Origin: a bacterium
GTDB lineage: Bacteria > Bacillota > Clostridia > Lachnospirales > Lachnospiraceae
Assembly (NCBI GenBank): GCA_030539495.1
Contig: JAUNRX010000024.1
Location: forward strand, 1 to 34,474
Reading direction: 5' to 3'
DNA: 34,474 bases
Below, one piece after another: positions 22,600 to 31,694 of this stretch (positions within the stretch are counted from its first letter, which is position 1; every line of letters starts with the position of its first letter). The notes beneath the pieces were generated by a model. The model ran no database searches, was not told the origin of the DNA, and saw only the letters and a list, made by a program, of their open reading frames with translations. The position numbers were made by a program, and so were the translations under genes.

Positions 22600-22652
22600 A
22601 AAAAAGCCATGAAAGATCACATAGCAATGCTATTGTCTTTCATGGCTTTTTT
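22600..22652. terminator. Terminator after copA
   Basis: A 17-bp perfect stem (22600-22616 with 22636-22652) with a smaller hairpin ATAGC-AAT-GCTAT in the loop. There is an A-run on the left and TTTTTT on the right, so it could work on both strands. Confidence 0.85.
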
Positions 22653-22693: not shown

Positions 22694-23001
22694 GAAGCTT
22701 TTCTTTTGGGTGAGGATATCCTTTGGATATCCTTGTAAAGGGACTTTTGCAATCAAAGTGTTCATTAATTATGTTTAAGAAAAATCTCATAGACTTCAGA
22801 ATAGCAATAGGGGGACCGTGCTATACCAAATGTATTTTCTCTGACATTACAGGCAAGGCGTAATGATTTTTGCTGTCAGACACCGTAAGGTGTCTGACAG
22901 CAAAAATCATTGCTTTGTCTGTAGAGGAAGGAAAATACAGTGGTATGCACGGCCCCCTATTGCTATTTCGCTATATTAGGTTGATTTTTCTTAAACGTAA
23001 T
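22694..23001. repeat. Long palindromic intergenic element, copy 1
   Basis: About 308 bp. A small hairpin AGGATATCC-TTT-GGATATCCT (22713-22733) is followed by a 222-nt palindrome. Its outer arms are TTTAAGAAAAATC (22774-22786) and the complement (22983-22995). Next inward are AATAGCAATAGGGGG (22800-22814) with 22953-22967, and GTATTTTC with GAAAATAC. A perfect 23-bp central stem (22862-22884 with 22889-22911) closes on GTAA. Copy 2 is at 31337-31646 in the same orientation. No transposase gene or clear target duplication is seen. It sits between the ends of copA and the convergent symporter gene. It could be a miniature mobile element or a structured RNA; the family is unknown to me. Confidence 0.85.
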
Positions 23002-23030
23002 TTCAACATTCTTTAAGAGCAAAAGTCTAA

Positions 23031-24386
23031 CTACATTTTGATGAAGCCCATTGCGCTTAGGATTGAGCTCACTAGGATGATTAGTAAGAAGGCTGGTGCA
23101 AGGTATGTGATTGTAATTGTAAATAATTTTTCACGTTTAAATTCACCAGAGCATTTTACTTCTTCAACAATTGTCTTAACGCCAACAACTTTTGCAATAA
23201 AGATACAAGTAAGAAGTGCTGCGATTGGCATTAAGATTGAGTTTGTCATGAAATCGAAGAAATCTAAAATTCCCATTCCAAGTAACGTAACACCATCCCA
23301 TAAACCAAATCCAAGACTGCAAGGAACTGCAATTACAAGAGTGATACAAGCCATAATTGCACAGCTTGCTTTTCTGCTAAGTTTAAATCCATCCATAAAG
23401 AAAGCAATACTAGCTTCCATAAGGGAAATTGCGCTGGTAAGGGCAGCAAAGAAAACAAGTACAAAGAAAGTACCACCAATCACTCCGCCTAATTTCATGC
23501 TTGCAAATACTTTAGGAAGAGTAACAAACATAAGTCCAGGACCTGCATTTAATGCAGCAGGATCTCCACCAGAGAAGGAGAATACCGCTGGAATAATCAT
23601 AAGGCCTGCGATAAATGCGATACCAATATCGAAGATTTCAATTTGTTTAATACTGCTTTCCATATCAATCTTCTTATTCATATAAGAACCGTAGGCAAAT
23701 AGGATTCCCATGGCAATGGAAAGAGAATAAAACATCTGACCTAAAGCCGCTACGATTGTCATAAACGAGAAGTTATTAAAGTTAGGAATTAGATAGAACT
23801 TAAGTCCTTCTAAAGATCCTGGTCTTGTTACAGAGTAAATTGCAATAATTAAAGATAAGACTGCAAGGATTGGCATTGCAAATTTACTAGCCTTTTCAAT
23901 CCCTTTTACCCCAAGGAATACAAATAGTAAGGATGCAGCAATAAATACCACTGTCCATACGATTGGCTCGCTTACATTGGAAACGTATCCGGTAAAGTAA
24001 GTGTCTTCTGCCGCTTTCATGGCACCACCTGTCATGTAGACAGAGAAGTATTTTAATACCCATCCGCCGATTACGCAGTAGTAAGGCACGATGAAGATTG
24101 GAATGATTGCATTGATAAAGCCCATACCCTTTGATTTCTTATTTAAGTCTCCAAAAGCAGCAATTGCACTTTTTCCTGTCTTACGGCCAAGTGCTGTCTC
24201 TGCAAGGACTAAAGTGTAACCAAAGGTTACCGCTAAAATAATATATACAAGTAAAAAGATTCCGCCGCCATATTTTGCAGCCAGATAAGGGAAACGCCAG
24301 ATGTTTCCTAGCCCAACGGCTGAACCGGCTACAGTTAATATGTAACCAAGTTTGCCGGAGAAGCTACCACGTTCTGTTGTGTTCAT
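23031..24386 (-). CDS. Neurotransmitter:sodium symporter family transporter
   Basis: A 451-residue membrane protein of the NSS/SNF family (LeuT, TnaT, MhsT). The first membrane segment carries the signature GSAVGLGNIWRFPYLAAKYGGG, the unwound helix that binds sodium and substrate. Eleven or so hydrophobic segments follow, with FYSLSIAMGI matching the TM6 substrate region. Bacterial members import amino acids with sodium; the exact one cannot be read here. The frame extends five codons upstream to GTG, but GGAGG falls inside that extension, so the ATG at 24386 is the likely start. It is convergent with copA across the palindromic element and appears monocistronic. Confidence 0.93.
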   Translation of the reverse strand: MNTTERGSFSGKLGYILTVAGSAVGLGNIWRFPYLAAKYGGGIFLLVYIILAVTFGYTLVLAETALGRKTGKSAIAAFGDLNKKSKGMGFINAIIPIFIVPYYCVIGGWVLKYFSVYMTGGAMKAAEDTYFTGYVSNVSEPIVWTVVFIAASLLFVFLGVKGIEKASKFAMPILAVLSLIIAIYSVTRPGSLEGLKFYLIPNFNNFSFMTIVAALGQMFYSLSIAMGILFAYGSYMNKKIDMESSIKQIEIFDIGIAFIAGLMIIPAVFSFSGGDPAALNAGPGLMFVTLPKVFASMKLGGVIGGTFFVLVFFAALTSAISLMEASIAFFMDGFKLSRKASCAIMACITLVIAVPCSLGFGLWDGVTLLGMGILDFFDFMTNSILMPIAALLTCIFIAKVVGVKTIVEEVKCSGEFKREKLFTITITYLAPAFLLIILVSSILSAMGFIKM

Positions 24387-24402
24387 AATATTTTCCTCCA
24401 CG

Positions 24403-25687: not shown

Positions 25688-26296
25688 CTAACGAATAGAG
25701 CCTTTTAAGATTGGTGATACATGTTTATATAATAGCAATGTGATCAATGACGATAATCCACATTTTAATAAGTTGAATGGAAGTACGGAAAGTACTAAGA
25801 AAGTAAGCGGATTTGTAATGGAGCCATTAATTGCTTTTGACATATTCATAATCGTATCCCAGTTCATTCCGAATGCAACGAAGTAAACAGGAAGCGTAAT
25901 AAAATAGTTAATAAAGCAGGAAGCAATGGACATAACGATGGTTGCAACAGTCAGACCAATGACTGCACCATTTCTGGAAGGCTTGCGACGGTAAATTGTT
26001 GCAGCAGTAAATACTAAGATGGAACCAGAAATAAAGTTAGCCAGTTCTCCAACACCTGCCGTTTGTGTACCATTGATAATCAGATTAAGTAGGTTTTTAA
26101 TTAATTCGATAATGATACCGGCAACAGGACTAAGCGCAAATGCACCAATTAAGACAGGAACTTCGCTAAAGTCGATGGTATAAAAACCAAGTGCAAATGG
26201 TACCGGGAATTTAAAAAGCATAAGTACAGCAGATAGTGCACCGAGCATTCCCATTAAAACTAGATTTCTTGTGCTAAAAACACGTGTTTGATTCAT
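25688..26296 (-). CDS. ribU: Riboflavin ECF transporter S component RibU
   Basis: A 202-residue membrane protein with about six hydrophobic segments. The N-terminal region (RNLVLMGMLGALSAVLM ... FALGFYTIDFSEVPVLIGAFALSP) is typical of RibU-type substrate-binding components, which capture riboflavin and dock onto a shared EcfA-EcfA'-EcfT energising module encoded elsewhere. The FMN riboswitch directly upstream on the same strand strongly supports riboflavin as substrate. The start is the ATG at 26296: AGGAGG is 9 nt upstream, whereas the earlier ATG directly abuts that site. Single gene, ending at a strong terminator. Confidence 0.93.
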   Translation of the reverse strand: MNQTRVFSTRNLVLMGMLGALSAVLMLFKFPVPFALGFYTIDFSEVPVLIGAFALSPVAGIIIELIKNLLNLIINGTQTAGVGELANFISGSILVFTAATIYRRKPSRNGAVIGLTVATIVMSIASCFINYFITLPVYFVAFGMNWDTIMNMSKAINGSITNPLTFLVLSVLPFNLLKCGLSSLITLLLYKHVSPILKGSIR

Positions 26297-26348
26297 AAAG
26301 ATCATCCTCCTAAAAATAAGTTACGAACAATTGTAAGCTCTTTAGAAG

Positions 26349-26437: not shown

Positions 26438-26454
26438 GTCAAAAAACAATCGCG

Positions 26455-26577
26455 TTATCTTCTCTCATCCAGACTTTACTGTCGGTTTTGGAATTACACC
26501 AAATCAGCCACATATTGCTATGCGGGTCGCGGACTGTTACCGCCGGTTGGGACTTGCACCCTACCCCGAAGAACTTA
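26455..26577 (-). promoter_or_regulatory. FMN riboswitch (RFN element)
   Basis: The minus strand reads with the conserved RFN blocks in order: CTTCGGGG, AGGGTGCAAGTCCC, ACCGGCGGTAACAGTCCGCGA, TGATTTGGTGTAATTCCAAA, CCGACAGT and AGTCTGGATGAGAGAAG. The closing P1 arms are present. FMN binding would stop transcription at a downstream terminator, so ribU is made when FMN is scarce. Confidence 0.95.
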
Positions 26578-31336: not shown

Positions 31337-31646
31337 GAAGCTTTTCTTTTGGGGTAGGAATAGCTTTGCTATTCCTGTAAAACGGGCATTTACTTCCATA
31401 GACTGCATCGATTGCTTTTAAGAAAAATCTCACAGCCTACAAAAATCAATAGGAGGGACAGTGCAATACCAGTCTGTTTTCCCTCTGATGTTATAGATAA
31501 GGCGTGGTATGTTTTGAGGACAAACACCGAAGGTGTCTGACAGCAAAATGTACCACGCCTTATCTGTAGAGGAAGGGGAAAATAGCGGTATGCACGCCCT
31601 CCTATTGATTTCTCGTAACCTAAATCTAATTTTTCTTAAAAGTAAT
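31337..31646. repeat. Long palindromic intergenic element, copy 2
   Basis: About 310 bp, related to 22694-23001 over its whole length. The leading hairpin is AGGAATAGC-TTT-GCTATTCCT (31356-31376). The palindrome runs 31417-31640. Its outer arm is TTTAAGAAAAATC with AATTTTTCTTAAA. Next inward are AATCAATAGGAGGG (31444-31457) with 31597-31610, AGATAAGGCGTGGTA (31495-31509) with 31551-31565, and ACACC-GAA-GGTGT at the tip. In this copy the inner left arm (about 31510-31523) no longer matches well, so the tip has an internal bulge that copy 1 lacks. It lies between the small lipoprotein gene and the prfC promoter. Confidence 0.85.
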
Positions 31647-31694
31647 CTTCATTTTATGATAAGAAAACGCCTCCTTTCCATTAGTATCCATGCC

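Follow-up and report, generated by a model that had tools for sequence, protein, structure and literature searches.

The 3′ ends of bacterial genes are usually seen as carrying private, quickly replaced terminators. The attC sites of integrons lie right behind stop codons and form imperfect hairpins whose stems vary while certain unpaired bases are conserved. Several families of dispersed repeats have also been described. In the available excerpts of one report, SPRITE is a terminator-like repeat present in 30 copies in one Streptococcus pneumoniae genome and enriched between convergent genes; it has an 18-bp duplex and no established target duplication, and SPRITE, BOX, and RUP repeats are typically under 200 bp (PMC3049150). 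According to the accessible parts of two other sources, REPs are extragenic palindromes of 20–40 bp that often lie close behind stop codons, are usually present in more than 100 copies per genome, and are linked to RAYT transposases; the GTAG REPs can supply the stop codon itself (PMC12306157, PMC3733652). As far as the excerpted text of a further study goes, the stop-proximal stem-loops of low-GC Firmicutes are mostly 30–50 nt long and are not explained by large repeat families (PMC1590033).

The window analyzed here is a stretch of 34,474 nt from a Lachnospiraceae genome, and it contains two copies of a family of repeat elements of ~300 nt that is apparently undescribed. A preliminary description had placed them at 22694–23001 and 31337–31646 and held that both fold. 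They are present at these positions in the same orientation, and both fold with a minimum free energy (MFE) far below that of shuffled sequence: −157.6 kcal/mol versus −69.6 ± 4.6 for the first (z −19.0) and −134.7 kcal/mol versus −71.7 ± 4.6 for the second (z −13.7), with 0 of 100 shuffles as good in either case. The extent of the first stretch calls for a correction: the palindrome of copy 1 spans 22742–23027, and positions 22694–22741 form a separate small-hairpin module on one side. That sequence-only reading also missed the minus sense strand and the anchoring to stop codons. The features of the window are as follows.

22742..23027, minus strand: main palindrome of copy 1, subfamily A (inverted repeats, fold, blastn family, stop adjacency)
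22813..22955, minus strand: conserved core of copy 1 (covariance model R1, 134.7 bits)
22862..22911, minus strand: tip of copy 1, a perfect 23-bp palindrome (inverted repeat and alignment)
22694..22741, minus strand: downstream (3′) module of copy 1 in the sense direction (alignment; small hairpin GGATATCC-AAA-GGATATCC)
23031..23033, minus strand: TAG stop codon of ORF 23031–24401
31337..31647, minus strand: copy 2, subfamily A (fold, inverted repeats, alignment)
31456..31600, minus strand: conserved core of copy 2 (covariance model R1, 142.8 bits)
31354..31378, minus strand: small-hairpin module of copy 2, GGAATAGC-AAA-GCTATTCC in the sense direction
22600..22652, strand not assigned: terminator-like hairpin behind the copper P-type-ATPase-like gene, outside the element (inverted repeats)

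Both window copies have the minus strand as their sense strand, and copy 1 directly follows a stop codon. The palindrome of copy 1, with outermost arms GACTTTTGC/GCAAAAGTC, begins 3 nt behind the stop codon of gene 23031–24401 (sense strand minus), whose product we take to be sodium:neurotransmitter-symporter-like. Its 3′ module finishes in ...AGCTTCCT and is common to many copies, and the terminator-like hairpin ~40 bp past copy 1 is separate from the element. Copy 2 has a lipoprotein-like gene (plus strand) and a prfC-like gene (plus strand) as neighbors, with no clear sense gene upstream, and it is also found at the orthologous place in the sister species G001 (contig C47).

The family extends beyond these two copies and was found in the window's genome (G000), in G001, in G003, and in G092. 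In G000, a draft of 257 contigs with 91% completeness, blastn gave 14 matches in 12 places, and a first blastn over 145 relatives matched in G000 and G001 only. The set was enlarged with a 29-base pattern, a tip pattern, and covariance models. G000 then held about 26 distinct places by hand count across searches: 23 from a covariance model (one of them, C87b, being half an element only), 2 tip-deleted copies from blastn, and 1 from a later covariance model. There are about 18 copies in G001, of which several have eroded or lost the tip. The complete genome G003, from the same genus, has 3, and G092, which belongs to another family of the same order, has 15; no copy was found in G002 (76% complete). 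The copies fall into subfamily A, with an outer stem like GGGCTTTTGCAC, which includes both window copies, and subfamily B, with the outer stem GGCTGTCGCA or GGCTGGCGCA. Those of G092 share the core framework TTGCCTCCACA ... TTCGTGACTATCAGA ... TCTGCTATTCACG with small changes, inside which a stem of ~8–10 bp is different in each copy.

An exact 29-mer occurs in 4 stretches of GTDB R220 contigs, two in the MAG S2R_St_11 and two that are chance-looking and lack the fold. Among 397 genomes of the family Lachnospiraceae, the tip pattern matched G000 and one chance-looking site in G232; among 200 such genomes, the core pattern matched 3 sites in G000 and one each in G008 and G066, with 5 matches for the reversed control. 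Covariance model R2 matched G000, G001, G003, and G092 among 61 relatives, and R3 matched G000 and G092 among 295 genomes of the order, which is a lower bound, as R3 scored 13 candidates per genome and recovered 13 of the about 26 G000 copies. The range scans scored few candidates per genome, so that the distribution as a whole is a lower bound. The element had not been recognized as a named family, and no family of Rfam 15 lies over it at gathering score, either in the window or in another 16 loci that were scanned over their full length; hairpin-type matches on the elements were all below gathering. It would add an RNA family without a match in Rfam 15. A literature search whose coverage leaves out most subscription papers returned no description of the family, and the combination of Lachnospiraceae with repeat terms yielded no paper.

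A distinctive characteristic of the family is its placement. Among 12 adjoining genes (11 in G000, 1 in G001), the outer stem lies, by eye, 0–6 nt behind TAA or TAG in ten; at C120 a truncated element has its inner part beginning behind the stop, and at C215 the element is not adjacent. The distance from stop to core is 67–82 nt in 22 of the 37 copies of the genus (p 6e-20 against a uniform distribution over 330 nt, the range having been picked after seeing the data), and the folded outer helix starts 0–7 nt behind the stop in 19 of these 22, the other three values being 34, 39, and 216. A sense ORF stops within 105 nt upstream of the core in 32/37 copies, although two of these ORFs, at copy 2 and its ortholog, are probably spurious; an antisense ORF stops within 105 nt on the other side in 5/37. 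The copies without such a sense stop are C215, C170, G1_C99a, C47, and C46, and in the C170/G1_C99a slot the element comes after another terminator-like hairpin. Spacing is looser in G092, at 13–277 nt for 14/15 copies with an ORF. At ten gene ends compared by eye with G001 the stop codon is at the same place, and therefore the element did not create it. The genes themselves look like ordinary syntenic chromosomal genes and not like cassettes. The earlier suggestion of a chromosomal landmark is disfavored by the anchoring of the elements to the stop codons of upstream sense genes.

Based on this placement and on the structural evidence given below, we tentatively regard the element as an RNA of ~300 nt, dispersed over many loci and conserved in structure, that acts as a gene 3′ end, an interpretation to which we assign slightly less than even confidence. 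The 3′ untranslated region of the host gene would open with the element, which has one orientation and starts a few nt past the stop. Once transcribed along with the gene, the element would adopt a very long hairpin; stem pairing and a few loop positions would be retained while most stem letters change. The hairpin would terminate or pause transcription, would protect the 3′ end of the mRNA, and may influence terminating ribosomes in the way reported for stop-proximal REPs. The element would have spread to many unrelated loci, followed by vertical descent and erosion. The analysis demonstrates the family, its placement, the conserved pairing, and the sense-strand asymmetry; transcription of the element, its termination or protection activity, and the recognition of its constant loops by a protein are inferred.

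Selection on folding had been proposed earlier from paired changes between the two window copies. The proposal stands for the family, as judged from 36 cores; the two copies alone are weak evidence. Over 106 projected pairs, 65 are unchanged, 6 have one-side changes, 22 are broken, and 13 are changed on both sides yet still pair, where 8.2 would be expected if the arms were independent. The argument from two copies outran the data, yet it is right for the family. Model R1 gave 79 rows in 38 loci, of which 36 sense rows were kept; the opposite-strand rows were dropped, as were five sense rows (L140, the weakest G003 copy, and L132:1025, L061, L136, and L137, which are eroded or tip-deleted). 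The 34 pairs evaluated over the 36 cores are formed in 93.4% of cells, compared with 75.4 ± 0.8% (maximum 78.3%) in 500 shuffles and 38–49% when the partner is slid by 1–3 columns. Having been fitted to a model of this same structure, the alignment leans toward it. Both-side compensated cells number 230 (74 ± 7, maximum 97, in shuffles), and 25 of the 34 pairs have at least one both-side change (17.7 ± 1.6, maximum 23, in shuffles). RNAalifold applied to a plain MAFFT alignment of 18 copies found both-side changes in 18/34 pairs. Covariation is thus strong over the family by RNAalifold and shuffles, which were used in place of R-scape.

Conservation of letters is distributed very differently. 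When 49 cores including those of G092 are aligned, variation is nearly absent (mostly 0–0.4 bits) from the columns of CCTCTACA and from several tip columns, while the stem between these columns is near random in letters (about 1.7–2.0 bits). The family thereby shows the speed of stem turnover with loop letters fixed. Orthologs in G000 and G001 were compared in seven cases, three of them too eroded or misaligned for use. Compensation is clearly above independence in two of the four usable pairs (21/123 with 8.9 expected and 12 broken; 11/120 with 4.2 expected and 14 broken), and the excess is slight in the khpA pair (11/106, 7.4 expected, 22 broken) and in the prfC-upstream pair (5/118, 3.6 expected, 21 broken). 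Taken together, these sequence comparisons support conservation of the fold across the whole family.

Complementary arms could also arise neutrally if template switching copied one arm onto the other and so restored pairing with no selection on folding. The tip of copy 1, alone among the 36 aligned copies, has 0 mismatches; probably one arm was copied from the other here, at least once in the family, and hence paired changes need not all be compensation. The short perfect hairpins found in G001 are consistent with the same process. As a general account it is very improbable: arm-to-arm copying would erase mismatches, whereas the 35 other copies keep 2–6 in the tip while their stems change, and it predicts no strand asymmetry, no fixed stop spacing, and no fixed orientation.

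The mismatches that remain in the stems bear on whether the structure matters as RNA or as DNA. If a structure matters as RNA, G.U is tolerated in it and A.C is not. When each 5′ arm was aligned, under symmetric scoring, to its 3′ arm in reverse complement, the isolated mismatches of the sense strand in 53 copies were 93 G.T, 31 A.C, and 153 others. With each sequence context counted once, G.T outnumbers A.C by 81 to 31 (p 2.5e-6), and the opposite strand mirrors this; outside the tip, the unique contexts are 56 and 24 (p 4.5e-4). Counted by alignment column the excess is weaker: 14 columns have more G.T and 5 have more A.C, and removal of the columns rich in either mismatch leaves 35 G.T and 20 A.C. 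This asymmetry on the sense strand points to folding as sense RNA rather than as a DNA cruciform, although coding-strand mutation bias could be a source of the G.T excess.

Extruded DNA had been named as an alternative to RNA from the start. In such a model, selection would act on a cruciform or single-strand hairpin serving as a binding site, be it a landmark, a recombinase or HUH-nuclease site, or an attC-like site. The constant mismatched loops within variable stems do resemble the extrahelical bases of attC and the REP hairpins used by HUH enzymes, and adjacency to stop codons recalls the position of attC behind cassette genes. Selection on DNA should treat G.T and A.C alike, and it is this expectation that the counts of 81 and 31 contradict. 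Considering also the ordinary, syntenic, and chromosomal character of the host genes, we judge this model quite improbable. Two tip patterns are without an exact match in viral contigs, a result that counts against it as well and for which carriage by phage was rejected as a candidate. Like attC, the element is an imperfect hairpin with fixed loops and variable stems directly after a stop; unlike attC, it is longer, sits beside ordinary chromosomal genes with no cassette arrays, and has an RNA-like G.T asymmetry.

If the element acts as a 3′-end RNA, it may take the place of ordinary terminators. A simple scan found no classical terminator inside either window copy, and an ordinary sense terminator in or near 5/54 element copies; the scan is crude and missed 3/9 control slots and the copA hairpin. 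Those control slots, in G001, G002, and G003, lack a full element, and a terminator was found at 6/9 of them (p 4.5e-4 versus element sites), or at 4/7 once the two shrunken hairpins are excluded (p 0.007). Among the window's own 21 gene ends, 6 had one, which is not significantly different from the element sites (p 0.063). A scarcity of other terminators at element sites is suggested. Many subfamily-B copies have, by eye, A-tract/U-tract ends at the base of the long inner stem.

Orthologous gene ends of G001 indicate what becomes of the element. The trx, tdcB, C33, and C173 slots hold eroded relatives of it. The symporter and mntR slots hold short hairpins built from element letters, whose pattern GGACAGTGCA...TGCACTGTCC occurs at those two G001 places only and nowhere in G000, G002, or G003; here the element has apparently been reduced to a simple terminator-like hairpin. 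By eye, the glmS slot has a short hairpin matching the inner stem of subfamily B. The remaining three of the ten ends have ordinary terminator-like hairpins, one with a stem like the outer stem of subfamily B. The element therefore often occupies a place where relatives carry a terminator, and its own terminator role is putative. It resembles intrinsic (Rho-independent) terminators in its genomic slot, in the A-tract/U-tract ends of many subfamily-B copies, and in its terminator-like shrunken derivatives. In contrast to them, the elements are long, mutually homologous, and equipped with constant loops.

The family has been both inherited and copied. Slots shared with G001 (prfC-upstream, phnA-like, khpA, C170, tdcB, C33, trx, C173, C160a, C206d, and C183) and with G003 (guaB), the gene names being our own reading of the sequences, show vertical descent. 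Copying is shown by the occurrence at unrelated loci, by one internal deletion shared by C104b and C173, and by a partial tandem copy (5′ half) directly behind the full copy in C170 of G000 (L122). Locus L185 (G092, C15) has nested or tandem partial copies with repeated outer arms. N runs lie in or beside the palindromes of L010 (C104b of G000) and L006 (C87a of G000), flanked by repeated element sequence, and are probably scaffolding artefacts at long hairpins. Capture of neighboring DNA in the variable stem was considered and rejected, as 9- to 12-mers of the stem are no commoner in their own flanks than in others (6 versus 9.3 expected for k=9 and 0 versus 0.3 for k=12, 54 copies), in a test whose loose anchor took the wrong segment in many subfamily-B copies.

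Such signs of copying could also be left by a MITE-like non-autonomous transposon, one of the readings offered in the preliminary description. Its arms would be the transposon ends, a transposase would act in trans, copies would survive mainly behind genes because they are harmless there, and any effect as RNA would be incidental. Such a transposon would fit the many dispersed copies in subfamilies, the deletion common to C104b and C173, which could mark the spread of a deletion derivative, the partial second copy directly behind a full one, and the patchy distribution across the order. Inverted repeats are indeed present at its ends, where the two arms form a conserved outer stem (GGGCTTTTGCA-like or GGCTGTCGCA/GGCTGGCGCA-like); an asymmetric module sits outside one of its ends. 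At the G001 slots, no target-site duplication was seen and no clean empty site was aligned by eye; these slots are occupied, eroded, or replaced, and their intergenic parts are not alignable by eye. A Y1 transposase (PF01797) has no match in the complete genome G003, which has copies of the element, and in the 91% complete draft G000 it is a fragment only. The four Y1 loci inspected, of five in G000–G002, have no element alongside; for the Y1 locus L144, the motif scan of the locus alone counts. A RAYT/IS200 parent is accordingly not supported. Moreover, harmlessness leaves the 16-nt spacing window and the fixed orientation unexplained, many of the slots are old ones that the species have in common, and the stems covary. 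We consider a MITE-like transposon unlikely.

An elaborated form of the 3′-end RNA interpretation, which we think unlikely in its entirety, joins function and spread. In it, a new class of spreading 3′-UTR RNA would bind protein with its constant loops and leave its stems free to vary. Its set distance from the stop codon would allow the terminating ribosome to hold the outer stem open, and by this means the termination or stability of the transcript would be tied to the end of translation. The spread would be aimed at gene ends, possibly via RNA, and would replace ordinary terminators. The family looks like a shared, homologous 3′-end module that has come to follow many unrelated genes and is then retained for its folded shape. 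Its orientation is almost always the same, and its spacing from the stop is often close to constant. It would thus offer a natural system for how gene ends get replaced, for how repeats find stop codons, and for whether ribosomes at stop codons control a hairpin just ahead.

Compared with the repeats described in the available excerpts, the element is like SPRITE, BOX, and RUP in being a dispersed, structured, MITE-like intergenic repeat. As regards structure and placement, it is unlike them in its length of ~300 nt, its very long stems with constant loops, its strong covariation, and its near-fixed distance behind the stop codon of one gene. With the REP/BIME/REPIN repeats, as far as the excerpted sources describe them, it shares a palindrome close behind stop codons; it is about ten times longer, and ortholog stop codons are at the same place. 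By eye, no constant tag of the REP type (GTAG/CGTC) lies ahead of the palindrome, and the PF01797 search of G000–G003 found no RAYT link. The element is therefore not a REP by size, tag, or RAYT. By analogy, it may work most like stop-proximal REPs or SPRITE repeats, as a 3′-end RNA element.

Other structured sequences and repeats were observed in the vicinity. The window has an FMN riboswitch (RF00050, 113.5 bits) at 26453–26577 (minus strand), ahead of the minus-strand membrane protein gene 25688–26305, which presumably encodes a riboflavin transporter. A match to SpF59_sRNA (RF02440) above gathering (53 bits versus 37.2) is at L101:824–892 (minus strand), some 600 bases from the element behind a thioredoxin-like gene. 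Two different proteins of one type, which we take to be RecA-like, are each encoded near an element or half element, at L033 (C87b of G000) and L028 (C155 of G000); their presence in one draft could reflect a real duplication or mixed bins. By eye, a second shared structured repeat, CGCTCCGCTAWGGATGCRCACTC ... GGAAGATGTCGC ... TTCGGCGC, lies beside the cores of L128 (C46 of G000) and L129 (C241 of G000), at khpA-like and guaB-like gene ends. Another dispersed palindrome, GGATGAAATC...GATTTCATCC, was seen by eye in L127 (C26 of G000), L143 (C9 of G000), and L046 (C124 of G001), and in L143 it adjoins an IS200-type transposase fragment.
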